Positions 15,273-32,442 of a stretch of 33,800 nt of DNA are shown here, piece after piece. The position numbers and the translations under genes were made by a program. The stretch lies in IMG/VR virus record IMGVR_UViG_3300042860_003466, positions 1 to 33,800 of that record; one strand, 5' to 3'. How positions within the stretch are numbered: the stretch's first letter is position 1; each line of letters opens with the position of its first letter. The DNA comes from a virus. Under the pieces are notes generated by a model, which made no database searches, had not been told where the DNA came from, and worked only from the letters and a program-made list of their open reading frames with translations.

Positions 15273-15848
15273 ATGTCTGACATGTCTGATGTGAAAGAAT
15301 TCATCGACATGGCAGCGCGATATCCGCTGTTGACCCAACAGCAAGAGATCGAGCTTGGGCGGCGCATCCAACTGTGGCTGAAGCATCCTGATCCCCCGCG
15401 GGGCCTGGTCAGGTCGGGTCGGCGCGCCCGTGATCAGTTCGTGTGCTGCAACCTGCGCCTCGTAGTGGCAGTTGCTAAGAAGTACCTCAGGCGCATTTCG
15501 GGCACGAGCATCACTTTTGCCGACCTGCTCCAGGAAGGCACGATCGGCCTGCAGCGTGCAGCTGAAAAATATGACCCCGAGTGTGGTTACAAGATGTCCA
15601 CCTACGCATACTGGTGGATCCGCCAGTCGATCACCAGGTCGATCGATATGAAAACCGGCATGATCCGGATTTCCAGTGGCGCCAAACGCAAACTGCAAAA
15701 ATTCCGTGAAGCAGCAGCGGAAGGTGGCACGGTTGAACAGATCCTTGACCGGGCTGGGCTGACTCAGCGTGATTTGAAAATCGTCGAGCAGGCCAGCATC
15801 TGCTACAAGGTGACCTGCTTGGACGGGCTGGATCTCAACGCAATCTGA
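15273..15848 (+). CDS. Short sigma-70-type factor lacking region 4
   Basis: A 191-residue sigma factor. It has region 1.2 (YPLLTQQQEIELGRRI), region 2.1-2.2 (NLRLVVAVAKKYL, DLLQEGTIGLQRAAEKYD) and region 2.3-2.4 (GYKMSTYAYWWIRQSITRSI), the last close to cyanobacterial sigma factors. After a region-3-like helical part it stops, so the -35-binding region 4 is absent; nothing downstream restores it. Phe is replaced by Met at the position of E. coli F427. Ribosome site AGGA precedes the ATG. It stands between the late genes and a small-gene cluster and could be a late or lysogeny-specific regulator. Confidence 0.85.
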   Translation: MSDMSDVKEFIDMAARYPLLTQQQEIELGRRIQLWLKHPDPPRGLVRSGRRARDQFVCCNLRLVVAVAKKYLRRISGTSITFADLLQEGTIGLQRAAEKYDPECGYKMSTYAYWWIRQSITRSIDMKTGMIRISSGAKRKLQKFREAAAEGGTVEQILDRAGLTQRDLKIVEQASICYKVTCLDGLDLNAI

Positions 15849-16844: not shown

Positions 16845-17366
16845 ATGATGACCACTTTTTCCGTTGTCGACTTTGCCAAGCACGGCATCCGCAAATCGGG
16901 CAAGTTCTACTACAAAGATGGCAAGCGCATCTCGACTGCCGAAGTGTGGAGTCTGATCGACACCTGCAGCAACGAAGAAGCCCAGCAAAATATCGCAGAG
17001 ACCGTACCTACGATGGTCGCCAACACGATCGAAGCAATCGACAACGGCACCTACTGGCAAGCCGATGAACAGCCTGCACCCGTGGCCGCCCCGGTGTTGG
17101 CCTCAACCGGCGATTCCTGGACCTTTGACAAGCTCAACGCAGCAACCCAGGCTTTTTTCTTCCAGCTTTGTGAGCAGCTTCAAGAAGCCACCAAAGATGC
17201 GTCGATGATCACAGGTGCCAAGATCGGCAAAGACCTGCCGAATATCGGCCTGGCCAATGCACCACGCCTGACCAATCTCAAGAAAGCTGGCGTTTTCGAG
17301 CACGGCGGCAAGGGCTGGTTGCAACTGACCGAGCGTGGCCGTGCGATCTTTCTGGCTACCGTCTGA
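16845..17366 (+). CDS. Lone gene with winged-helix-like C-terminus, candidate regulator
   Basis: A 173-residue protein, or 172 from the second ATG. The N-terminal part (FSVVDFAKHGIRKSGKFYYK, WSLIDTCSNEEAQQ) matches no family I know. A Pro/Ala-rich linker near residues 78-90 separates it from the C-terminal part, which ends APRLTNLKKAGVFEHGGKG and WLQLTERGRAIF; this helix-turn-wing pattern resembles MarR/ArsR-type winged helices. It is transcribed alone from a strong promoter, divergent from a small-gene cluster across a dyad, and followed by a strong terminator. That isolation is typical of repressors or lysogeny-maintenance genes. DNA binding is an inference. Confidence 0.7.
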   Translation: MMTTFSVVDFAKHGIRKSGKFYYKDGKRISTAEVWSLIDTCSNEEAQQNIAETVPTMVANTIEAIDNGTYWQADEQPAPVAAPVLASTGDSWTFDKLNAATQAFFFQLCEQLQEATKDASMITGAKIGKDLPNIGLANAPRLTNLKKAGVFEHGGKGWLQLTERGRAIFLATV

Positions 17367-18003: not shown

Positions 18004-19914
18004 TCATACTGATTGTCTCCATATTGTCTTAAACTCTCCCGATAGATCCTTACGTGTCTTGTAGTATCCGAGCGATCTCAGGATCCGATTCACCCTTGTA
18101 AGTGTTGTATGGTTTTGCCGCTCCAACGGAATCTCCAGACAGTTAGTCAGAATATCGCTGCTCAGGACATATTCAAAGCGCCGCACAACCAGCCACGTGG
18201 ATATCTTGTCGCGCCAGGCATCCTCCGCATACATGCCTCGGTTGCGGGCATTGTTGACCTCCGTTTCCTGCTCATCAAGGAACCATTTCGCCCCCGCCAG
18301 ATAATCACGACGAGCGCTGCTCCAGATCCTGTCGCGCAGGTCCTCGATCTTTTCGGAATCGATCTTCTTCTCCACCGTGTAGATCACGAACCGGCGGTTG
18401 CCGGTCTCATCCGAGAAGAAGCCATCATGCTTGTTGGTCGTGCCGCAGAGCACGAACTGCCGCGGCCTCTCCTGATGCCCTTTGCCATATGCCTCGCGCA
18501 CAAGATCGGTCTTGCGGGTGATGAAGTTTTTCAGCCCAGCTGACTCGTGGTTCTTGATCCCACCGTCCAGTTCGCCCCATTCCGCGATCCAGCGCATGTG
18601 CAGGCCCACGATGTCGTCCGCATCCTTGTTGGACTTGATGAAGCCCTCGTAGAACCAGGGCTCACTGGCCAAGGTGTTGTAGAAGCGAGTCTTGTGCAGG
18701 TGCTGGTCACCGGCCAGGATGTGCACGAAGCCGCACGGGCAGCCGGGCTCATAGATCCGAGCCACAGCAAAGATCAACCATTTGCGCAGAGCGCTGTTAT
18801 CGAAGTCGTGAGCATCGCCACCGAGGAGTTCGCCCGCAATATTCGCCCACACCCCGTCAGGCAGCGGATCTGTGCAGGTGTCCAGATACTGCCGGATCGG
18901 GTGATAGGGACGGTCGCAGGCCGCACGCAGCAGCGCATCTTGCGCAGTCTGCGTCTGCACATCGATGCCACTGTGCTGCAGGTCGATGTAGGCCAGGCGC
19001 AGCGCAGTCTCGTCCATGCAGGTGCCGTCGATCTCGATGGCACGTTTCAAGGTGTTGAACCGCAGGGCACCACCAAGGCCGTTGTCGATGATGTGCTTGA
19101 GCTCCAGCCCGCGGGGCTTGACCAAACGACCAGTGTCTGTGTGGTGCTGCCCCAGGCGCTCGTACCAGGGCAGCTGCGGCAGTGTGGGACCCTCCATCCG
19201 CACGGCACCGCGCAGGGCATCCTTGGTGGCACCGTCTGCGATCCAATCTGCGATGTCATATCCGTCGCACGGGTCATCCCAAGCATCGGTATTTGAGGAC
19301 TGCGGCCAGAGCCACCTGGACCCAGGGAACGCCGCGGCCAGACGCTGCATGAGCTCGATCCCAGGGCGGTCCCTGTCCGGGCAGAGGATCAGGCGGTTGG
19401 CAGCAAACTTGGGCAGGCCGGGCATCTTGGACTTCCAAGAGCCGCTGCCGTTGGGCACAGATGTGACGTGCAGGTCCATCGCCCGCAGAGCCTCGGCGCA
19501 GGTCTCGCCCTCGACCACAAACACCGTGGCACCAGACTCGGGCAGATTCTCATACCACAGCGGCAGCAGGTCATCAGTCTTTGTGCCCTTGGACCAGGAC
19601 ACATCCTTGGGGCCATACGTGTAGTCGATGCGGCGGTGCAGGCTGCGCTTGCCCGCGGGGGTGAAATATTCCCACTGCCTGGTGCGGACAATCTCGCGCT
19701 CGGTGTGGCGCTTGAATGTCACGCACTCTGCGTCATCGTTGATCTTCACGCATGCCCAGCCATCTGCCACGATCTCACCCACCTTCAGGTGCGGGTGGCG
19801 CTGCATCGGGCTGCAGGAATTGCCGATGCGGCAATAGAGCAGGTCATCCTCCCATTTGCAGCCACCCGACGTGCGGCCACAGACAGGACAGGGCGTTCTC
19901 GTGCTCGAGAGCAT
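18004..19914 (-). CDS. Primase-helicase: zinc finger, TOPRIM and VapE/VirE-type ATPase
   Basis: About 636 residues from ATG 19914; a GTG at 19962 would add 16 residues. Near the N-terminus is a zinc-finger-like CPVCGR...CKW...CRIGNSC. A TOPRIM-type domain follows with VVEGETCAEAL and the acidic CPDRDRPG motif. The C-terminal half is a VapE/VirE-like ATPase with RPYHPIRQYLD, WIAEWGELDG (Walker B-like), FITRKTD and LCGTTNKHDGF (sensor-like). The Walker A position reads GDQHLHKTRF, so the usual Gly before Lys is His. Expected role: primer synthesis and unwinding at the phage fork. No ribosome site decides the start. Confidence 0.82.
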   Translation of the reverse strand: MLSSTRTPCPVCGRTSGGCKWEDDLLYCRIGNSCSPMQRHPHLKVGEIVADGWACVKINDDAECVTFKRHTEREIVRTRQWEYFTPAGKRSLHRRIDYTYGPKDVSWSKGTKTDDLLPLWYENLPESGATVFVVEGETCAEALRAMDLHVTSVPNGSGSWKSKMPGLPKFAANRLILCPDRDRPGIELMQRLAAAFPGSRWLWPQSSNTDAWDDPCDGYDIADWIADGATKDALRGAVRMEGPTLPQLPWYERLGQHHTDTGRLVKPRGLELKHIIDNGLGGALRFNTLKRAIEIDGTCMDETALRLAYIDLQHSGIDVQTQTAQDALLRAACDRPYHPIRQYLDTCTDPLPDGVWANIAGELLGGDAHDFDNSALRKWLIFAVARIYEPGCPCGFVHILAGDQHLHKTRFYNTLASEPWFYEGFIKSNKDADDIVGLHMRWIAEWGELDGGIKNHESAGLKNFITRKTDLVREAYGKGHQERPRQFVLCGTTNKHDGFFSDETGNRRFVIYTVEKKIDSEKIEDLRDRIWSSARRDYLAGAKWFLDEQETEVNNARNRGMYAEDAWRDKISTWLVVRRFEYVLSSDILTNCLEIPLERQNHTTLTRVNRILRSLGYYKTRKDLSGEFKTIWRQSV

Positions 19915-19971
19915 GGTAAAATAATTCGAAGAGCAGGATTCGACCCCGGCTTGGGCTGGCACCCACCGGGG

Positions 19972-20352
19972 TCATTCCGTATATGACACGGTAACACGAT
20001 CCGAAAGGAGCGTCACAGCATCTTCAACGGAACGTGCCACGCCTGCAACACCACCGGCGCAGCGCAGGCGATCCAAAAAATGCAGCTGGTCCTCACGGAC
20101 CTTGCCTGTGGGCGTCTTGATCTCGATGCCGCAGAAGACGGCCACCTTGGATCCAACCATATCGGGCGTGATCTCTACGGTCTTCCAGCCCACAAGATCG
20201 GGCGAGCCTGGGTGCAGGCCAAACTGCACCATCCGACCGTTGGCATCACGCAGAGCGCCGCAATGATTCCGAAAAATCGTGGAGCCTAGGCATTTAGCCG
20301 AGAGCGCCAGGCGAATTTCGTTTTGCAGGACAGTCTCTGGCTGTGCACCCAT
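19972..20352 (-). CDS. VRR-NUC domain nuclease
   Basis: A 126-residue nuclease of the VRR-NUC family (PD-(D/E)XK superfamily). The core is visible: GSPDLVGW (Asp of the PD motif) near residues 49-56, then CGIEIKTPTGKVREDQLHFLD with the ExK motif in EIK and the conserved GxxxxxQ. Phage VRR-NUC proteins are thought to cut branched or flapped DNA during replication or recombination. It lies next to the primase-helicase gene. Complete length for the single-domain type. Confidence 0.88.
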   Translation of the reverse strand: MGAQPETVLQNEIRLALSAKCLGSTIFRNHCGALRDANGRMVQFGLHPGSPDLVGWKTVEITPDMVGSKVAVFCGIEIKTPTGKVREDQLHFLDRLRCAGGVAGVARSVEDAVTLLSDRVTVSYTE

Positions 20353-21871: not shown

Positions 21872-23239
21872 TCATTTGCGCGACTTCATCACCGCGTAGG
21901 CCCAGCCCGGCTTATACCCGCGGTCTTTGGCGATCTGCAGCAACTCCTCGAGGGTGCGTGCTTTGCCCACCTCCTTGCGCTTGTCCTTTGCAGCGGCTCT
22001 TTCCTCGGCTGCAGCACGGCGGGTGTCCACCTCCACGAGGTCCGCTTGAACCTCCTTGGGCATCTCACGGGCCACAGCGTGCACATGCCCGCAAAAAGGA
22101 CAAACGGCAGCAGGACGGTGGACCCCATAGCACGACGGGCAGATGCGCACAGCCACGGCGCGCAGGTCGCTGCGGCTCTTGGGCGCGATGCCCTGCAGGC
22201 TCCAGGGGCGCACGTCACAAGGCAATCCATGCGTCTGGGAATTGCCTGCACAGTCCAAAATCACGGCCTCACGGTCTGAGGGTCGCAGGGCGCGCCCGAC
22301 TTGCTGCAAATACACGCTGAGCGATGCCGTAGGGCGCAGCAAGATGGCGCAGTCGCAGGCAGGTACATCGAAGCCTTCGGAAATCAGGTCTACAGAAACC
22401 AGCACCCGCACATCGCCAGATTTGAAAGCATCAAGCCTGGCAGCACGCTCGGCGGCAGACAGGGTGCCATCGACGGAGGCCGCGGCCACCCCAGCTTCGT
22501 TGAATGCACCGCAGGTGAGCTCGGCATGCTTGATCGACGTACAGAATGCGATCGCACGGCGATCAGGCGCATACTTTTTGAAATTCTGCACAGCGCTATA
22601 GAGCACCCGCGATTCGATCATGCGCTCTTCGATCTGCTCGACCCTGTAGTCACCAGCCCGTTTCGACAGACCAGACAGATCGGCGCCCGTAGGTGGTGCG
22701 TAGAGCTTGTAGCGCGACAGATGACCCATCTCCATGAGCCTGGTCACAGACGGACCCTCGACCAACGCATCAAAAGAATCCGACAGGCCTTTGCCGTCCA
22801 GCCGCTGCGGTGTGGCTGTCCAGCCCAGCACATGGGCATTGGAGTAGCCATCGAGCACCTGCTTCCAAGACCGCGCCGCACAATGGTGTGCCTCATCGAC
22901 GATCAATAGGTTGGGCGACCAGGGAAATGCTTTTAGGCGGCGCGCTGCCGAATGGATCGACGCGACCTGTACCTGCGCGTGCACGACAGGATGGCCCGGC
23001 GCGATCACACCGTGTGGCACATCCATGGCCGTGAGCCGCGCAGACGTCTGGGCAATCAGCTCACTGCGGTGCACCAGGATGAGCACATTGTGGTTACGGT
23101 ATGTGCTCAGCTGGGCGATGGTGCAGAACGTGTGCGTCTTGCCGGCACCCGTTGGCAGTACCGCCAGGATCCGCCGGTGCTCCTGCAGTTCGGCACGAAT
23201 TTGGTCGATCAAATCAATTTGGTACGTGCGCAGGCCCAT
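21872..23239 (-). CDS. SF2 DEAH-box helicase
   Basis: About 455 residues from the ATG at 23239 (a GTG precedes it by three bases). Motifs run in order: Q-like LRTYQ, Walker A PTGAGKT (residues 30-36 region), HRSEL (Ia), VDEAHH (II), GWTATP (III), SVDLISEGFDVP (V) and QQVGRALRP (VI), as in ResIII-type superfamily 2 helicases. A C-terminal CPSCYG...CPFCG zinc ribbon and a charged tail follow. Likely a replication or recombination helicase working with the nearby primase-helicase and nuclease. Full length for this family. Confidence 0.9.
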   Translation of the reverse strand: MGLRTYQIDLIDQIRAELQEHRRILAVLPTGAGKTHTFCTIAQLSTYRNHNVLILVHRSELIAQTSARLTAMDVPHGVIAPGHPVVHAQVQVASIHSAARRLKAFPWSPNLLIVDEAHHCAARSWKQVLDGYSNAHVLGWTATPQRLDGKGLSDSFDALVEGPSVTRLMEMGHLSRYKLYAPPTGADLSGLSKRAGDYRVEQIEERMIESRVLYSAVQNFKKYAPDRRAIAFCTSIKHAELTCGAFNEAGVAAASVDGTLSAAERAARLDAFKSGDVRVLVSVDLISEGFDVPACDCAILLRPTASLSVYLQQVGRALRPSDREAVILDCAGNSQTHGLPCDVRPWSLQGIAPKSRSDLRAVAVRICPSCYGVHRPAAVCPFCGHVHAVAREMPKEVQADLVEVDTRRAAAEERAAAKDKRKEVGKARTLEELLQIAKDRGYKPGWAYAVMKSRK

Positions 23240-23275
23240 CACCGCAAATCCCCAAACAACGTGTCTTTTGCTGAG

Positions 23276-23572
23276 CTAGTCATTGAGCTGCTCCACCGCT
23301 CGCCGCAAAAGGTCAAAATCTGCCATCATTTGATTTGCAGTTGTGTGTGCGTTGGTATGGAAACGACCGAGTGCTTGCAATGCTTGCTCTTTCAAACTGC
23401 CCGAGTATGCATTACGTATCTGCTGAGTCACAGCAGCATGAATACCGGCGCCCAGTTCAAGCCTCTCGATTCTGTCGCGCAGCTCGAGGATGCAGGCGGA
23501 TCCGCCGCTGTCCTTAGATGACCAAAAGAGCACCTCTGCCCACTGCTTTTCAGTTGCTTTGAATTCAGACAT
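23276..23572 (-). CDS. Hypothetical helical protein
   Basis: A 98-residue protein starting MSEFKATEKQWAEVLFWSS, helical throughout, with LELRDRIERLELG and a C-terminal DFDLLRRAVEQLND. It sits between dCTP deaminase and the SF2 helicase, with a one-base overlap to the former. The last 20 residues may form a coiled coil. No family recognised. Confidence 0.6.
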   Translation of the reverse strand: MSEFKATEKQWAEVLFWSSKDSGGSACILELRDRIERLELGAGIHAAVTQQIRNAYSGSLKEQALQALGRFHTNAHTTANQMMADFDLLRRAVEQLND

Positions 23573-24147
23573 CAGACGATCGGCAGGGTGACTTGTTCTT
23601 GTTGGCCTTGATATTTACCACAGCGGTCTTGGTAGGTGGTGTCGCAGGGCTCACCCTCGAGGAATAGCAGCTGGCAGACGCCTTCATTCGCGTAGATGCG
23701 GCAGTCGGCACCGCTGGAGTTGCTGAATTCCAGGGTCAGGTGGCCACTCCAGCCAGCCTCAGCGGGGGTCACATTCACGATGATGCCCATGCGGGCGTAG
23801 GTGGATTTGCCAACGCAGATCGCCGTGACATTGCCTGGCATCTGCAGGCGTTCCAGGGCCACGCCCAGGCCATAACTGTGGGCGGGCAGCACAAACCACA
23901 TGCCTTCTGTGTCGGCGTGCAGCTTGACCTGCTCAAGATTCTGTGGATTGAACCGCTTGGGGTCCATCACGGTGCCAGGCACGTGGCGGAAGATCTTGAA
24001 ATCTTTGGGCGACAGGCGCAGGTCATATCCGTAGCTGCTGCAGCCGTAGCTGAGTGCCGGGATGACTCCGATGTGCCGCTCTAGCTGCGGGACCAGCGGG
24101 GTAATCAGGCCGGGCGTGCTGCGGATCCAGGCGTCGTTTTTGAGCAT
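23572..24147 (-). CDS. dcd: dCTP deaminase
   Basis: A 191-residue member of the Dcd/dUTPase fold. Visible motifs are GCSSYGYDLRL (strand lining the active site), GKSTYARMGI, and NVTPAEAGWSGHLTLEFSN with the catalytic Glu of the TPAEAGW stretch. It converts dCTP to dUTP, feeding dTTP synthesis. In a phage predicted to remake its nucleotide pool this supplies thymidine precursors. The length matches bacterial Dcd. It is the first gene of the leftward replication block and diverges from the early operon across 91 bases. Confidence 0.9.
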   Translation of the reverse strand: MLKNDAWIRSTPGLITPLVPQLERHIGVIPALSYGCSSYGYDLRLSPKDFKIFRHVPGTVMDPKRFNPQNLEQVKLHADTEGMWFVLPAHSYGLGVALERLQMPGNVTAICVGKSTYARMGIIVNVTPAEAGWSGHLTLEFSNSSGADCRIYANEGVCQLLFLEGEPCDTTYQDRCGKYQGQQEQVTLPIV

Positions 24148-24189: not shown

Positions 24190-24218
24190 TTGACGCATCT
24201 GATCGATCGTGATTTACT
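24190..24218 (+). promoter_or_regulatory. Promoter for the rightward early operon
   Basis: TTGACG (24190-24195), 17-bp spacer, TTTACT (24213-24218), followed by the ATG at 24239. It matches a sigma-70 promoter at five of six and four of six positions, so host RNA polymerase could use it at once after entry. It lies in the divergent gap with dcd. Confidence 0.45.
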
Positions 24219-24238
24219 ACATCAGTCCGCTTTTTCAC

Positions 24239-25051
24239 ATGGACATCATCGACTACCACGCCCACAGCGGCGTATCCAAATCCAAACTCGACTCGATCGC
24301 CAAATCACCACTCCACTACTGGAGCCGGTGGTGCGATCCCAACAAACTCGAGCCTGCACCGACACCTGCAATGGAGCGTGGCACCGCCGTGCATATGGCT
24401 GTGCTCGAACCCGAAAAGTTCGCTGCGACGTATGCCCAGGCGCCGGATGTCAGCCGCACCACCAAAGCAGGCAAGCTCGAATGGGAGCTAGCTGCAGCGG
24501 ATGGCAAGAAGCTCCTAAAAAAGGATGACTGGGACACCGTGCAGTACATGCTGCGCTCTGTGATCGAACATCCAATGGCACACAAGATCTTGGCCGCCCC
24601 AGGCCGTGCAGAGGAATCATTCTTTGCCAAGTGCCCCAACACCGGCCTCGAGCTCAAGTGCCGCCCTGATTGGCTGACAGACTCCGGTTGGCTGGTCGAT
24701 CTGAAGACCACACAGGATGCCTCGCTCAAGGGCTTCCAGAAGGCGGTTGCCACTTACCGCTACCACGTGCAGGCGGCGCACTATCTGAATGTGTTCAAGC
24801 TCGCCACTGGTACGCAGCCCCGCGGTTTCATCTTCATCGCGGTGGAAAGCACCGACCCTTGGGCGGTTCAAGTCTTCGAAGCATCACCGCTGCTGATCGA
24901 AGCAGGTGCCCTCGAAGTCAACCGCAATCTGCAGGCGCTCGCGCATGCAGCATCAACCTACCCACTCGGATTGCCATGGCCAGGATACAGTCAGCACGTA
25001 ACAACGCTGGACCCGCCGACGTGGATGAGCCCACGCCTGCCGGAAATGTGA
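24239..25051 (+). CDS. PD-(D/E)XK exonuclease, RecE/YqaJ-like
   Basis: About 270 residues from the ATG at 24239 (a GTG at 24209 would add ten). The nuclease core is visible: SKSKLDSIAKSPLHYW, ERGTAVHMAVLEP, CRPDWLTD and LVDLKTTQDAS, i.e. the G.A.H, D and DLKT(T) motifs of RecE/PDDEXK_1-type DNA exonucleases. It would resect double-stranded DNA 5' ends for annealing. Its stop overlaps the start of the ERF annealing protein gene, the usual partner. Confidence 0.88.
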   Translation: MDIIDYHAHSGVSKSKLDSIAKSPLHYWSRWCDPNKLEPAPTPAMERGTAVHMAVLEPEKFAATYAQAPDVSRTTKAGKLEWELAAADGKKLLKKDDWDTVQYMLRSVIEHPMAHKILAAPGRAEESFFAKCPNTGLELKCRPDWLTDSGWLVDLKTTQDASLKGFQKAVATYRYHVQAAHYLNVFKLATGTQPRGFIFIAVESTDPWAVQVFEASPLLIEAGALEVNRNLQALAHAASTYPLGLPWPGYSQHVTTLDPPTWMSPRLPEM

Positions 25052-25470
25052 TGGAGAACCTTGCACAGGCGCTGGCCGCTTTCCAAGCCACACATCACAG
25101 CGCCAGCCGGTCAGGCCGCGGCAATTATGGGCAATACGTCACCTTGGCAGATGCCCTGCAAGCCGTCCAGCCTGCCACAGCATTTGGTCTGGCGCATGCC
25201 CAGACTATGCACTACCTAGGCGAGGGGCTGATGTCGATCCGCACCACGCTGATGCATGTCTGCGGCGAGAGCATTGAATCTGACCTGCCAATCCCGGTCA
25301 GATTCGAAGGTGGGCGCGGCAATGCCATGCAGCAGCTTGGCTCAGCGCTCACCTATGCCCGCCGTTATGGTCTCTTGTCGATCTACGGATTGGCTGGAGA
25401 TGATGATGATGATGCTGAATCAACCTTTGTTAAAAAACAGACTGATCATGATGCAAAAGATTTCTTCTGA
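25051..25470 (+). CDS. erf: ERF-family ssDNA annealing protein
   Basis: A 139-residue protein starting MENLAQALAAFQATHHSASR from an ATG overlapping the exonuclease stop; longer starts exist but lie inside the exonuclease. The ERF signature is clear: GNYGQYVTLADALQAVQPA, then GSALTYARRYGLLSIYGLAG followed by an acidic DDDDD run. It anneals complementary single strands in phage recombination and genome circularisation. Shorter than the typical 200 residues, lacking an N-terminal part. Works with the exonuclease. Confidence 0.88.
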   Translation: MENLAQALAAFQATHHSASRSGRGNYGQYVTLADALQAVQPATAFGLAHAQTMHYLGEGLMSIRTTLMHVCGESIESDLPIPVRFEGGRGNAMQQLGSALTYARRYGLLSIYGLAGDDDDDAESTFVKKQTDHDAKDFF

Positions 25471-25538: not shown

Positions 25539-25766
25539 ATGTCGCCCGATCTTGACCGGAGCAATCTTCTGACCCCCAGCGAGCTTGTCAAACGTTGGGA
25601 ACAGTCCTTGTACCCCGTCTCGAATGTCACTCTTAGCAGGTGGCGCCGAGATGAGAAAGGTCCAAATTTTATCAAGATCGGCGCAGCCGGTCGCGTGTTC
25701 TACCTCCTCGATTCCGTGAAGGAATTCGAAGCCACCCACAACATTGGAGTTACCATCCGTGCCTAA
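25539..25766 (+). CDS. Small HTH protein, excisionase-like
   Basis: A 75-residue protein starting MSPDLDRSNLLTPSELVKRW. The LTPSELVKRWEQ and VTLSRWRRDEKGPNFIKIGAAGRVFY segments resemble MerR/AlpA/Xis-type winged helices of 60-80 residues. With an integrase on the same genome it may be the excisionase; it could equally be an early regulator. The 68-base gap before it holds an AGGA ribosome site about 12 bases before the ATG. Confidence 0.7.
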   Translation: MSPDLDRSNLLTPSELVKRWEQSLYPVSNVTLSRWRRDEKGPNFIKIGAAGRVFYLLDSVKEFEATHNIGVTIRA

Positions 25767-26055
25767 TCCCGCCATCAATGCCTCGCTGTTCAAAAACGAG
25801 CGCAAGGAGCAAGACAACCAACCGGATTTCACCGGTCCTGGCACCGTCACTCCCGAGAATCTCAAGGCCATCTACGAGGCCGCCGTCTCCGACAAAGCGG
25901 TGTTCGATGACAACGGCGCTATCAAAGTGCGTGTTGCCGGTTGGCGCAAAGAGTCTGCCAAAGGCACCACCTACATCTCGTTGTCGATCCAGCTTGAGCA
26001 GCCGCGGCCAGATGCCAAGCCTGCCGCCAAGGCCAGCAGCGGAGACTTGTTCTGA
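25759..26055 (+). CDS. DUF736-like small protein
   Basis: A 98-residue protein. The start is a GTG at 25759, preceded by GGAG nine bases upstream; it overlaps the previous stop by eight bases. The ASLFKNERKEQDNQPDFTGPG opening matches the LFKN-KKE-xNxPDxTG pattern of DUF736-like proteins, and the centre IKVRVAGWRKES follows the family pattern too. Function unknown; a single-stranded-DNA- or replication-associated role has been suspected for relatives. The Pro/Ala-rich C-terminus ends in an acidic GDLF, like single-strand-binding tails. Confidence 0.65.
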   Translation: MPNPAINASLFKNERKEQDNQPDFTGPGTVTPENLKAIYEAAVSDKAVFDDNGAIKVRVAGWRKESAKGTTYISLSIQLEQPRPDAKPAAKASSGDLF

Positions 26056-26282
26056 TGGCCTTTTACGAAGCAGATGAGCTGCGCCGTATTGCCGATCTGA
26101 TCGACCGGTTCCCAAAGTTCATCCGGCGCGATAAGGGCAAAGTGTCTGTGCACGAAGCCATTAGCGGCATCCTCAATCGGCACCACATTTACAACGCGGC
26201 GCTCGAGATCGAGCTTGAACAGCTCACTGAGGACTACCGCCAGACCATCGCCAATTACTACGAACGCCAATTCGGAGCATGA
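26055..26282 (+). CDS. Hypothetical protein just upstream of purZ
   Basis: A 75-residue helical protein starting MAFYEADELRRIADLIDRFP. It overlaps the previous stop (TGATG) and ends with an ATGA overlap with purZ, so it is tightly coupled to purZ translation. The ELEQLTEDYRQTIANYYER end is a charged helix. No family recognised. Its position makes it a candidate Z-pathway accessory. Confidence 0.65.
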   Translation: MAFYEADELRRIADLIDRFPKFIRRDKGKVSVHEAISGILNRHHIYNAALEIELEQLTEDYRQTIANYYERQFGA

Positions 26283-27370
26283 GATCCGTCGAAGTCATCA
26301 TGGATGGCCAGTACGGATCGACCGGCAAGGGCCTCTTTGCCGGTTATCTGGCATCCAAGCACAATCCCGAAGTTCTGGCCTGCGCGCTTTCGCCCAACGC
26401 TGGACACACCCTGATCCTCGAAGACGGCACCAAACTGGTGCACCGGATGTTGCCCCTTGGCATAGTGTCAGACAGCCTGCACACAATCGTGCTCGGCCCT
26501 GGCAGCCTGATCGATCTCGATGCCCTCTGGGAAGAGATCCAGAATGCTGAGATGCTTGGCCTGCTGTCTGAATCTGTGCGCATCTGCGTGCACCAGAACG
26601 CAGCAGTGGTGACAAATCATCACCGCGATGCAGAGTCAGATGGTGGCACTGCGCCAGGCTCTACCCGCAAAGGGGTCGGCGCGGCTCAGATAGAGCGGAT
26701 TCGCCGCAAACCCGATGAAAACAACATCATCGGGCTGATGCAGCCGGTGCACCCGGTCTTTGACCGCATCTCACTGGCGAGCACCCATGAGTTGCAGCGC
26801 ATCTACCTGGAGGCCAACCGCATCCAGGTGGAAGGGTGCCAAGGCTACAGCCTGAGCATCTATCACGGTCAGTATCCGTATGTCACTTGCCGCGATGTGT
26901 CCACCTACAGCCTGCTCGCAGACTGTGGCATGCCGTACATGCGCTGGTCTGCAGTGACTGTCTATGGCGTATTCCGCACGTACCCCATTCGCGTGGCCAA
27001 CCGACCCACTTCTGGCGAGTGGAGCGGCCCGACATACCCAGACTCGCAGGAAACCACCTTCGAGGCGATCGGACAGGCCCAGGAGCTCACCACGGTGACT
27101 CAGCTCCCACGGCGCATCTTCACATTCAGCCACCAACAGGCAATCGAATCCTGTGTGCAGAACAAGGTCGATTTCATCTTCTTGAACTTCGCACAGTATT
27201 GCACCAGTTGGAAGGATCTGCGCGATCTGTGGCTCAGGCTCAATGAATGCTCGATGGTCTCGTACCTCGGCTTCGGTCCCAAAATCGACGACATCGTGCG
27301 CGTCGGCTCACCCAACATCACAGAAGAACATGTCCGAGAAATCTACGAGCGTGCACGAGCTGCAGGCTGA
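26279..27370 (+). CDS. purZ: PurZ, 2-aminoadenine pathway adenylosuccinate synthetase paralogue
   Basis: A 363-residue PurA homologue. The P-loop reads GQYGSTGKG at residues 10-18; PurA has GQWGDEGKG, so the catalytic Asp is Ser14, the known mark of phage PurZ. Conserved: PNAGHT (His43), GSTRKGVGAAQ (128-137), VEGCQGYSL, YHGQYPYVT and GFGPKIDD. PurZ joins dGMP and aspartate to make ADGMP using ATP or dATP, the step committing to dZTP; host enzymes finish it. It lies in an operon with mazZ and datZ. Shorter than PurA (about 430) as PurZ proteins are. Confidence 0.93.
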   Translation: MRSVEVIMDGQYGSTGKGLFAGYLASKHNPEVLACALSPNAGHTLILEDGTKLVHRMLPLGIVSDSLHTIVLGPGSLIDLDALWEEIQNAEMLGLLSESVRICVHQNAAVVTNHHRDAESDGGTAPGSTRKGVGAAQIERIRRKPDENNIIGLMQPVHPVFDRISLASTHELQRIYLEANRIQVEGCQGYSLSIYHGQYPYVTCRDVSTYSLLADCGMPYMRWSAVTVYGVFRTYPIRVANRPTSGEWSGPTYPDSQETTFEAIGQAQELTTVTQLPRRIFTFSHQQAIESCVQNKVDFIFLNFAQYCTSWKDLRDLWLRLNECSMVSYLGFGPKIDDIVRVGSPNITEEHVREIYERARAAG

Positions 27371-27635
27371 CATCGCCGAATGGGCAGACAAGCTCAATCC
27401 GCACCGCACCGCACTCAGCATCATTGCCAAGATGCTCGAGGAGCTGGGCGAGCTCATCGCCTCAGACAGGCAGGATGACCCGCTAGAACTGGCCGATGTG
27501 CTAATTCTGGCGCTGGACCTGGCACACATCAAGGGGATCGACCTGACTGATGCCGTTCAGCGCAAAATGCGAGTCAACCGCAACCGCGTGTGGCGCATCG
27601 CAGACAATGGAGCCATGAAGCATGTCTCAGCTTGA
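27330..27635 (+). CDS. mazZ: MazZ, MazG-type (d)GTP pyrophosphohydrolase
   Basis: A 101-residue protein starting MSEKSTSVHELQADIAEW from the ATG at 27330, inside the end of purZ. The MazG EXXE...EXXD metal site is complete: EELGE (Glu38, Glu41) and ELAD (Glu53, Asp56). In phage S-2L MazZ turns dGTP and GTP into dGMP/GMP, giving PurZ its substrate. The longer upstream frame to 27243 lies within purZ coding and is unlikely. A 14-base overlap leads into datZ. Confidence 0.87.
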   Translation: MSEKSTSVHELQADIAEWADKLNPHRTALSIIAKMLEELGELIASDRQDDPLELADVLILALDLAHIKGIDLTDAVQRKMRVNRNRVWRIADNGAMKHVSA

Positions 27636-28152
27636 GCTGCGAACCACCGCAGAGTTTCTGCGCGCCAGTCACATCACCCGGTGGGGAATCGTCCAGACTG
27701 CGGTTCCGCAAAACATCGCGGAGCACATGTACCGCGTGTGGCTGCTTGTGCGTGCCTGGGGTCCGATCGTCGGTCTCACCGCCGATGAGCAGTTTTTGGC
27801 CGAGCAACTTGCCTTGATGCACGATCTGCCAGAGATCCGCACCGGCGATGCACCGACGCCACACAAGACTACAGAGCTTAAAGCACATCTAGCGCGAGTT
27901 GAGCAGGAGATTTATCCTGAGCTTCGTGCGTTGGAGGAGCAGGCACCTGCAAAGGTGCACGCTCTGGTCAAGCACTGTGACACCGCCGAAGCGGTGCTCT
28001 TTCTCGAAGTGAATGGGCTAGGCAAGCACGCGGCAGATGTAAAAGCACTGCTGCGCCAGCAAATGCTGGATCGATTGGCCATGTCGCCATTCGATCCTGC
28101 AATCCAAGTCGCACTCATCAACGCGTTCCATTCCACATTGCACAGCACATGA
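27622..28152 (+). CDS. datZ: DatZ, HD-domain dATP triphosphohydrolase
   Basis: A 176-residue HD-domain protein. The metal site is intact: His35 (IAEHMYR), His67-Asp68 (LMHDLPE) and Asp120 (KHCDTAE); the TRW motif (residues 19-21) and the EIRTGDAPTP stretch also fit the family. In S-2L DatZ removes dATP, leaving dZTP to pair with T. Length and residue spacing match that enzyme closely. It overlaps mazZ, completing the purZ-mazZ-datZ set. A generic YfbR-type 5'-nucleotidase is the main alternative, but neighbourhood makes DatZ far more likely. Confidence 0.88.
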   Translation: MSQLELRTTAEFLRASHITRWGIVQTAVPQNIAEHMYRVWLLVRAWGPIVGLTADEQFLAEQLALMHDLPEIRTGDAPTPHKTTELKAHLARVEQEIYPELRALEEQAPAKVHALVKHCDTAEAVLFLEVNGLGKHAADVKALLRQQMLDRLAMSPFDPAIQVALINAFHSTLHST

Positions 28153-28716: not shown

Positions 28717-28922
28717 CCCGCACACGCACCCGTTTTTTGATCACCGTTGGTGATTTGTATCTGGCTGACCCTGCGCCGGACGACAGCGGCATCAGGCTGA
28801 CAAGCAATGAGCTTGCCGCTTTAAAATTTGTGACATTCGAACGCGCATGTCATGTCGCCAAAGTGGCAGCTGCGCGCACCGAATTTGAGCCACGCGTTCT
28901 CAGCTGCGAATTCGACTACTGA
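28713..28922 (+). CDS. Hypothetical small protein
   Basis: A 69-residue protein starting MTRTRTRFLITVGDLYLADP, with coupled overlaps to both neighbours (ATGA and TGATG). It appears alpha/beta with FERACHVAKVAAARTEF near the end. Similar short proteins occur next to sigma or regulatory genes in cyanophages. No family recognised. Confidence 0.55.
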   Translation: MTRTRTRFLITVGDLYLADPAPDDSGIRLTSNELAALKFVTFERACHVAKVAAARTEFEPRVLSCEFDY

Positions 28923-29791
28923 TGTCTACCGCATTTGACGACTTCCTCGAGAATATCGGCAAGTATCCGTTGCTCACCCCAACGGAAGAGATTGAGCTTG
29001 CCAGGCTAATTCAAGCTTGGTTGCCGTTGCGCAAGCGGACCAAACTGAGCAGATCTGAACGGCGCACTGCGACGATCGGGCGCCGTGCATATGACAAATT
29101 CTTTTGTGCCAATCTGCGGCTGGTGGTCTTCGCTGCCAAGCGCTACATGATCAAATCAAAGTCGATGACCATCGATGATCTGGTGCAAGAGGGTTGCATG
29201 GGCCTCGCACGCAGCATCGAGAAGTTCGACCCTGAAAGAGGCTATAAATTCAGCACTTATGCCTACTGGTGGATCAGACAGTCTATTGCCAGGGGGCTCG
29301 AGGCATATGACCGCATGATCAAGCTGCCTGTGGTTGGTGTCCAGACGCTGGGCAAGCTGCGCAAATTCACCTTGGAGTTCTATCGAGACAATGGCAGATA
29401 CCCGAGCAAATCTGAATGCATCGAGCACTGCGATGTGTCCATTCATTTATTCAATGCATACATCGCGCATGCAGATGGTTGCTCTTCGCTTAATGCCAAA
29501 TGCAACAGCGAAAATCATGCAAGTGAGCTTATAGATTTGGTCATCGATGACGATCGCTCGTTAGGGGAATCCATCGAGCGCAGCATGATGCACGAGCATC
29601 TGCAGCGTTGGATGCTATCTCTGAGCCACGAAGAAAGAGACCTGCTTACCAAACATTACGGCTTGGATAATTCATCACCGATGTCACTGCAGGATATCGG
29701 CACCGGGATGTATTTGAGCCGTGAAGCAATCAGGCATAAAGAAAATGTGATCATTAATAAGCTGCGCATTAAGGCCAGAGCCTATCAGTAA
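28922..29791 (+). CDS. Full-length sigma-70-type factor
   Basis: A 289-residue sigma factor: region 1.2 (YPLLTPTEEIELARLI), region 2 (NLRLVVFAAKRYM, DLVQEGCMGLARSIEKFD, GYKFSTYAYWWIRQSIARGLE), region 3 (LRKFTLEFYRDNGRYPSK) and region 4 (LSHEERDLLTKHYGLDN, then an HTH around LQDIGTGMYLSREAIRHKE). The residue at E. coli T440, which helps read position -12, is Ala here. It is the last gene of the early operon, so it is well placed to switch RNA polymerase to middle or late promoters. Its stop overlaps the endolysin gene tail to tail. Confidence 0.9.
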   Translation: MSTAFDDFLENIGKYPLLTPTEEIELARLIQAWLPLRKRTKLSRSERRTATIGRRAYDKFFCANLRLVVFAAKRYMIKSKSMTIDDLVQEGCMGLARSIEKFDPERGYKFSTYAYWWIRQSIARGLEAYDRMIKLPVVGVQTLGKLRKFTLEFYRDNGRYPSKSECIEHCDVSIHLFNAYIAHADGCSSLNAKCNSENHASELIDLVIDDDRSLGESIERSMMHEHLQRWMLSLSHEERDLLTKHYGLDNSSPMSLQDIGTGMYLSREAIRHKENVIINKLRIKARAYQ

Positions 29792-31557: not shown

Positions 31558-32442
31558 TCATAATACAGGCATTGTATATTCCTGAGTCACATTCGCATAG
31601 TGTTTCCAGATGATCTCACTCGTGTTGCCTGCCCATTTTGCGGCCTGCATGACAGGAATTCCAGATTCGATCCAGCGACTGATCGCGACGTGCCGCAGGT
31701 CATACGGACGGTAGTACTCTTCGATCAGACCAGCGTCGTGCAGCTCGGTCATCCGCTTTGCAAAATACGACTGGAATGCCAAGCGATTCCAGGGGAAGAT
31801 GTATTCTGAATCCTTGGGTAGTGAGTCCAGGATCTCGCCAAAGCGATCATTAATGGGCACCCACCGCGGCTTGTTGGTTTTGGTGGTCGATTTGTAGCCA
31901 TGCGTCAACGTGTAATTCGCATGTACCAAAATGCGATCATTTTTGATGTCTTGCCATCGCAGCGCACGAACCTCGCCCGTCCGCATTGCCGTTTGCAGCA
32001 TGGTTTCTGCGTAGAGCGACCAGTCGATGCTCTTGTGGTGGAATTTATGTGACAGCGCCGCCAAAATCAGCTGGATTTTGTCACGCGGTATGATCATGAT
32101 CTCGCAGCGATGCTGAGATTGCTTGGGCATGCGAAAGTTGGCCACAGGATTCTTCTCCAGCATGCCAATATCTTCAGACGCTGCCCATTTGCACATGCTG
32201 CGAATGTACATGACCACCTTGCGAGCCGATGGCGCAGGCTCTTGCTGCAGCATCCAAATGCAAATCTGTCTGGCCTGATCCAGATCCTGAATGGGGCTGC
32301 GTTTAAGCCAGTTCGTTACTTGTCGATAATCTGTGCCCATGCTGGTAGGGCACACGGTGATGCTGCGTTCAGCCTTGAAGGCTTCCCAGACATCCATGAG
32401 TTGAGGCATCGTGATAAAGCGTGACAGGTCACAGCCTATCAT
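31558..32442 (-). CDS. int: Tyrosine recombinase (phage integrase)
   Basis: A 294-residue integrase with an N-terminal arm/SAM-like domain and a catalytic domain. Active-site residues visible: Arg154 (RTGEVRALRW), Lys in the KTNKPRW beta-hairpin, Arg250 (DLRH), His251 and nucleophile Tyr282 (WKHYAN). The His of HxxR is Tyr247 and the later His/Trp position is Asn273; such swaps occur in this family. Catalyses site-specific insertion at a host attB. Start M1 or M12 cannot be decided. It follows two small genes and precedes a fibre/edge region. Confidence 0.88.
   Translation of the reverse strand: MIGCDLSRFITMPQLMDVWEAFKAERSITVCPTSMGTDYRQVTNWLKRSPIQDLDQARQICIWMLQQEPAPSARKVVMYIRSMCKWAASEDIGMLEKNPVANFRMPKQSQHRCEIMIIPRDKIQLILAALSHKFHHKSIDWSLYAETMLQTAMRTGEVRALRWQDIKNDRILVHANYTLTHGYKSTTKTNKPRWVPINDRFGEILDSLPKDSEYIFPWNRLAFQSYFAKRMTELHDAGLIEEYYRPYDLRHVAISRWIESGIPVMQAAKWAGNTSEIIWKHYANVTQEYTMPVL

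Follow-up and report, generated by a model that had tools for sequence, protein, structure and literature searches.

How does a virus that carries the genes for replacing adenine by 2-aminoadenine (Z) copy its genome, when no DNA polymerase of the known families is found in it? In the Z-phages of the accessible literature, the polymerase is a Z-preferring Pol A (DpoZ) or, in the case of cyanophage S-2L, a PrimPol. In the present study, we analysed positions 1-33,800 of the IMG/VR record IMGVR_UViG_3300042860_003466 (33,800 bp, GC 56%), which is called the window here and in which no tRNA genes were found. Its major capsid protein is 82-88% identical to those of KBS-S-2A and S-H1, phages of Synechococcus WH7803, and this points to a picocyanobacterium as the probable host. 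We consider, with a joint probability of about 0.72, that the window covers the greater part of the genome of an uncultured cyanosiphovirus, which has a Z-cluster of the S-2L type, and that its Z genome is copied by the host replicative polymerase while phage enzymes swap dATP for dZTP in the pool.

Results

The Z-cluster consists of three genes, with the following predicted products and the evidence for each in brackets.

26279-27370, + strand: purZ, dGMP-dependent succino-aminodeoxyadenylate synthetase, 363 aa (NF038379, phrog_1211, PDB 7odx, residues)
27330-27635, + strand: mazZ, MazZ-1 type (d)GTP pyrophosphohydrolase, 101 aa (PDB 7ody, PF04447, PF03819, residues)
27622-28152, + strand: datZ, HD-domain dATP triphosphohydrolase, 176 aa (PDB 6zpa, phrog_7076 dATP triphosphohydrolase, residues)

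A sequence-only reading of this DNA had proposed overlapping frames for PurZ, MazZ and DatZ at 26279-28152, and the frames were confirmed there, with the S-2L crystal structures as the best PDB matches of PurZ (7odx, 1.8e-110), MazZ (7ody, 1.3e-32) and DatZ (6zpa, 1.1e-53), all far from what chance would give. PurZ scores 316 bits against the NCBI PurZ model NF038379 (cut-off 300) and stays below every PurA cut-off. By BLAST, the identity to the S-2L orthologues is 54% for PurZ, 60% for MazZ and 56% for DatZ. The mazZ gene lies between purZ and datZ, as in S-2L-type Z-clusters, and overlaps them by 41 nt and 14 nt, respectively; purZ also shares 4 nt with the preceding gene (26055-26282), and datZ shares 4 nt with the next one (from 28149). 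The overlaps within the triad recur in S-2L, and co-translation of the three genes, as the same reading had suggested, is plausible from this arrangement. With the same order and overlaps and with the substrate-selecting residues kept, the three are true orthologues of the S-2L triad, which supports the interpretation given in that reading.

The residues named in the S-2L structure papers (PMC8342488, PMC8065100) were located in an alignment of the window proteins with those of S-2L and of IMG/VR relatives, in which the window MazZ was taken from an upstream in-frame start, so that its numbering there is +29 relative to the 101-aa form. PurZ keeps 27 of the 28 listed residues, including S-2L S23, V241 and Q308; the sole exception is C204, which is V in the window and is variable across the clade. 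Its P-loop serine, noted earlier as Ser14, is indeed the equivalent of S-2L Ser23 and replaces the catalytic Asp of PurA, and the residues of the dGMP pocket are kept (substrate-selecting positions in the window S14/N40/T129/Q188/V239/T271/Q306). All the listed MazZ residues (E34, E35, E38, E50, D53, I56, D60 and R83 in S-2L numbering) are kept. The guanine-selecting I56/D60 are I59/D63 in the window, and the predicted EXXE/EXXD motif is present as E37/E38/E41 and E53/D56. The H, HD, D metal site expected for DatZ was found as H35, H67-D68 and D120, and 15/15 key residues of this protein are kept, including the selectivity residues I22, W20 and P79 (S-2L numbers), of which I22 bars the 2-amino group (PMC8342488, PMC8065100); the substrate-selecting positions in the window are R20/W21/I23/P80/K82/K117. 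The active sites are conserved in 24-25 relatives. Furthermore, the dN/dS of the triad is 0.03-0.09 against the relative G004 and 0.05-0.08 against G005, values which indicate that purifying selection on it is strong. Because the active-site residues are kept and dN/dS is low, the triad is considered to be maintained.

The Z-cluster stands in a run of + strand genes, most of which overlap. The exonuclease and the annealing protein (24209-25470) open this run, and an RpoD-like sigma factor (28922-29791) closes it. The replication and nucleotide genes of the - strand lie before it.

18004-19962, - strand: zinc finger and TOPRIM primase fused to a VapE-like helicase, likely start 19914; in place of the S-2L AEP PrimPol
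19972-20352, - strand: VRR-NUC endonuclease, homologue of S-2L S2L_31 (PF08774; 44% to S-2L)
21872-23242, - strand: SF2 DNA helicase, homologue of S-2L S2L_30 (phrog_16; 46% to S-2L)
23572-24147, - strand: dCTP deaminase (TIGR02274, 123.9, above the cut-off of 92.8)
24209-25051, + strand: exonuclease VIII-like PD-(D/E)XK nuclease, homologue of S2L_27 (phrog_412, PF12684; 37% to S-2L)
25075-25470, + strand: ERF-type single-strand annealing protein, homologue of S-2L S2L_26 (PF04404)
25759-26055, + strand: small protein, weakly SSB-like, homologue of S2L_25 (phrog_7364, E 0.0012)
28922-29791, + strand: cyanobacterial RpoD-type sigma factor (TIGR02997, 1.2e-71), ending the Z-cluster gene run

S-2L has a single polymerase, PrimPol, in which an AEP domain is joined to a helicase (PMC8065100). 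Residues 258-591 of the window primase-helicase are 47% identical to residues 332-663 of this protein, which is its helicase half, and a VapE domain was found; for the AEP half of S-2L there is no match in the window protein. Instead, the front half has zinc-finger cysteines C9, C12, C19 and C28 (CPxCGR...GC...YCRIG), a TOPRIM Glu at E135/E137 (EGE) and a DxD at D180 and D182 (CPDRD, CPDRDRPG), all invariant in 10 sequences. This half matches the primase/helicase family phrog_239 at 1.7e-12. Foldseek on a predicted structure of the front half, which is of moderate quality (pLDDT 72, pTM 0.52), gave Twinkle and DnaG at E <= 0.001 and then the TOPRIM of RNase M5. None of the Pfam TOPRIM models passes its own cut-off on the front half, and a profile search of the PDB sequences gave no match to it, so that the TOPRIM assignment rests on the motifs, phrog_239 and the fold. 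These argue for a TOPRIM primase like those of DnaG, Twinkle and T7 gp4, with a predicted TOPRIM and not AEP fold, which by homology should be a maker of primers and no genome polymerase. The polymerase half of S-2L PrimPol is thus swapped for a TOPRIM primase in the window's lineage, and the helicase half is kept. The view that the S-2L set is complete here therefore stands for the triad and fails for the writing of the genome. The gene at 18004-19962 is absent from that earlier reading.

IMG/VR was queried with the primase, independently of the Z-cluster, and contigs were kept when their primase was at least 62% identical and they were long enough to reach the distance of the Z-cluster. Besides the window, 12/12 such TOPRIM contigs carry purZ, and those that continue have mazZ and then datZ after it; none of these 12 was without the Z-cluster. 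A total of 31 IMG/VR loci were found, with PurZ in most of them 52-100% identical to that of the window, and the lineage is therefore much bigger than the single isolate S-2L. In three members of the same clade, G006, G017 and G018, an AEP Prim-Pol takes the place of the TOPRIM primase. The one in G006 (locus L024, 3908-6040) occupies the corresponding position and is joined to the VapE-like helicase, and the PurZ of this genome, at 78% identity, marks it as a close relative of the window, which is evidence for module exchange. Three state changes are needed to place the TOPRIM lineages on the PurZ tree, at least two of them forced by well-supported branches, and a single TOPRIM clade is rejected (AU p about 1e-13, to be read with caution as some branches are long). 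The primase/polymerase modules were thus exchanged, at least twice on this tree, around a Z-cluster that stayed in place.

The search for a phage DNA polymerase was made with models of the Pol A, Prim-Pol, Pol III alpha and Pol B families (PF00476, PF09250, PF07733, PF00136). No match was obtained in the window, G001-G004, G009, G010, G014 and G016, where the Prim-Pol result is to be read with the fact that this Pfam model fails to detect even the AEP of S-2L; for Pol A (PF00476), the negative result covers the window, G001-G004, G014 and G016. In sum, no Pol A/B/C or Prim-Pol family member was found in the window, a complete 39.5-kb relative and two further contigs of about 40 kb. Relatives also supplied the tail-tip region, which lies outside the window, and G004 (IMGVR_UViG_3300042452_001105) was taken as complete on the basis of its direct terminal repeat of 99 bp. 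In 11/11 isolated PurZ phages of other hosts that were tested as a control, the search for Pol A did give a match. As far as the known polymerase families go, a DNA polymerase gene seems to be missing from the whole TOPRIM lineage.

Discussion

From the genes and their residues we infer, with good support, that the window's virus has Z-DNA; the enzyme activities, Z in the virion and the use of a host polymerase are inferred with it. MazZ would convert (d)GTP to dGMP, and PurZ would condense dGMP with aspartate using (d)ATP, after which host enzymes and kinases would complete dZTP. DatZ would degrade dATP and spare dZTP, and the pool would then offer Z and not A opposite T. The phage primase-helicase would load the host replicative polymerase, which would copy the Z genome, with A kept out by DatZ alone. 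For S-2L, it has been demonstrated that dZTP is made by MazZ, PurZ and host kinases and that DatZ removes dATP (PMC8342488, PMC8065100). Klenow does not discriminate between A and Z, and it has been remarked that hosts might in principle make ZTGC-DNA during infection (PMC8342488). A host polymerase could write Z-DNA because it is DatZ, and not the polymerase, that excludes adenine in S-2L, and because Klenow is unselective. The dCTP deaminase has a probable role in dUMP/dTMP supply and may boost dTTP for Z:T pairing. This gene is conserved in the closest clade of the window, and the S-2L annotation is without one.

The strongest competitor, which we still regard as unlikely, is a mixed A/Z genome, with the substitution partial or incidental and used mainly against restriction. 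An unselective host polymerase would be expected to give such DNA, and the S-2L triad alone in E. coli placed Z at only 12% of the A positions of a plasmid and 4% of those of the chromosome (PMC8342488), so that host copying might yield partial and not full substitution. However, the PrimPol of S-2L is equally unselective and prefers A, and the DNA of this phage is nevertheless fully Z thanks to DatZ (PMC8065100), whose selectivity residues are all kept in the window.

It is less probable again, and in our opinion doubtful, that Z-DNA is polymerised, in the way of S-2L PrimPol, by the product of a divergent and unrecognised phage gene or by the TOPRIM-VapE protein. Many small genes have no assignment, and very divergent polymerases escape profile searches, as the AEP of S-2L escapes the Prim-Pol model. 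In G004, however, every protein of at least 250 aa has an assignment other than polymerase (head, tail, lysis, sigma, PurZ, helicase, primase-helicase or terminase) and the remaining ones are small; the modelled fold of the primase front domain, TOPRIM and not AEP, also speaks against it. A decayed or repurposed cluster, whose enzymes merely break down the host pool or, like PurA, produce adenine nucleotides, is highly improbable given the serine in place of the PurA catalytic Asp, the failed PurA cut-offs, the low dN/dS against near relatives and a triad that is intact in every relative spanning the region.

Copying of a Z genome by the host polymerase thus remains our preferred explanation, and it can be extended. 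Genomes may be fully Z without a phage polymerase, in that host Pol III, an enzyme selected for A-T, writes and copies Z-T DNA and the pool enzymes alone exclude adenine, and integrase-bearing members could alternate, with the prophage in A form and the virion in Z form; to this extended proposal we give an even chance. The gene in question is as follows.

31558-32442, - strand: tyrosine integrase (PF00589, phrog_1), 61% to the integrase of Synechococcus phage S-LBS1

Three lineages carry an integrase. The gene occurs in the window and in G001, G005 and G007, and is absent from G002 and the complete G004. A temperate lifestyle of the integrase-bearing Z-phages is possible. For S-LBS1, integration was not demonstrated (PMC6157547), and pattern scans for close relatives of PurZ and the integrase in 84,980 GTDB species genomes found no prophage or host. 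The 'integrase' annotated beside purZ in phiVC8 and BUCT555 was considered as a precedent for temperate Z-phages and rejected, as these genes of about 2.3 kb, which lie upstream of purZ, have the size and position of the gene annotated as DNA primase in ZP6 and K300; they are probably misannotated.

Compared with cyanophage S-2L (MW334946), the window has the same order and overlaps of purZ-mazZ-datZ at 54-60% identity, no Pol A, and the exonuclease, annealing protein, helicase, VRR-NUC and VapE-like helicase nearby. It differs in the zinc finger and TOPRIM domain before the helicase, where S-2L has AEP PrimPol, in having the dCTP deaminase and the integrase, in head and tail genes that are only distantly related, and in GC content (56% against 69%). 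Phages of the phiVC8 / SH-Ab 15497 type (PurZ, MazZ-2 or DUF550, DatZ, DpoZ) share the functions of the Z-cluster, with PurZ about 36-46% identical, but all 11 tested encode a Pol A, and the window has none. The cyanosiphoviruses KBS-S-2A, S-H1 and MED4-117 have a major capsid protein 67-88% identical to that of the window, but their replication genes are other ones and they are absent among the PurZ matches listed. A lambda O-like initiator in KBS-S-2A and a DnaG-type primase in S-H1 suggest that these two rely on the host replisome; such reliance is not unusual for cyanosiphoviruses and odd for a Z-phage. S-LBS1 resembles the window in its integrase and in a cyanobacterial RpoD-type sigma factor, but has an annotated PrimPol and no annotated Z-cluster.

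The Z-cluster itself is ordinary, one more member of the S-2L kind. New are the replication swap and the apparent lack of a polymerase across an uncultured clade, of which we found no description in the open literature, with subscription papers covered in part. If the proposed copying is true, this natural and repeatedly evolved lineage, with the pool enzymes and without the polymerase, would show that control of the pool alone suffices and that the normal replisome of a cell is able to write a Z genome, which bears directly on the building of Z-DNA cells.

Some minor observations concern transcription and a small gene. Scans for promoters and terminators gave counts no higher than in shuffled sequence. 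Two sigma-70-type genes are present, one at 15273-15848 (65% identical to S-2L S2L_15) and the full RpoD-like one at 28922-29791. A tie of the sigma factor to Z-promoters was rejected, as similar sigma factors occur in the non-Z cyanosiphoviruses S-LBS1 and KBS-S-2A. The gene at 16845-17366 codes for a 173-aa protein that has an S-2L homologue (S2L_14), and its sole family match is a weak one to Mrr_N (E 0.007).
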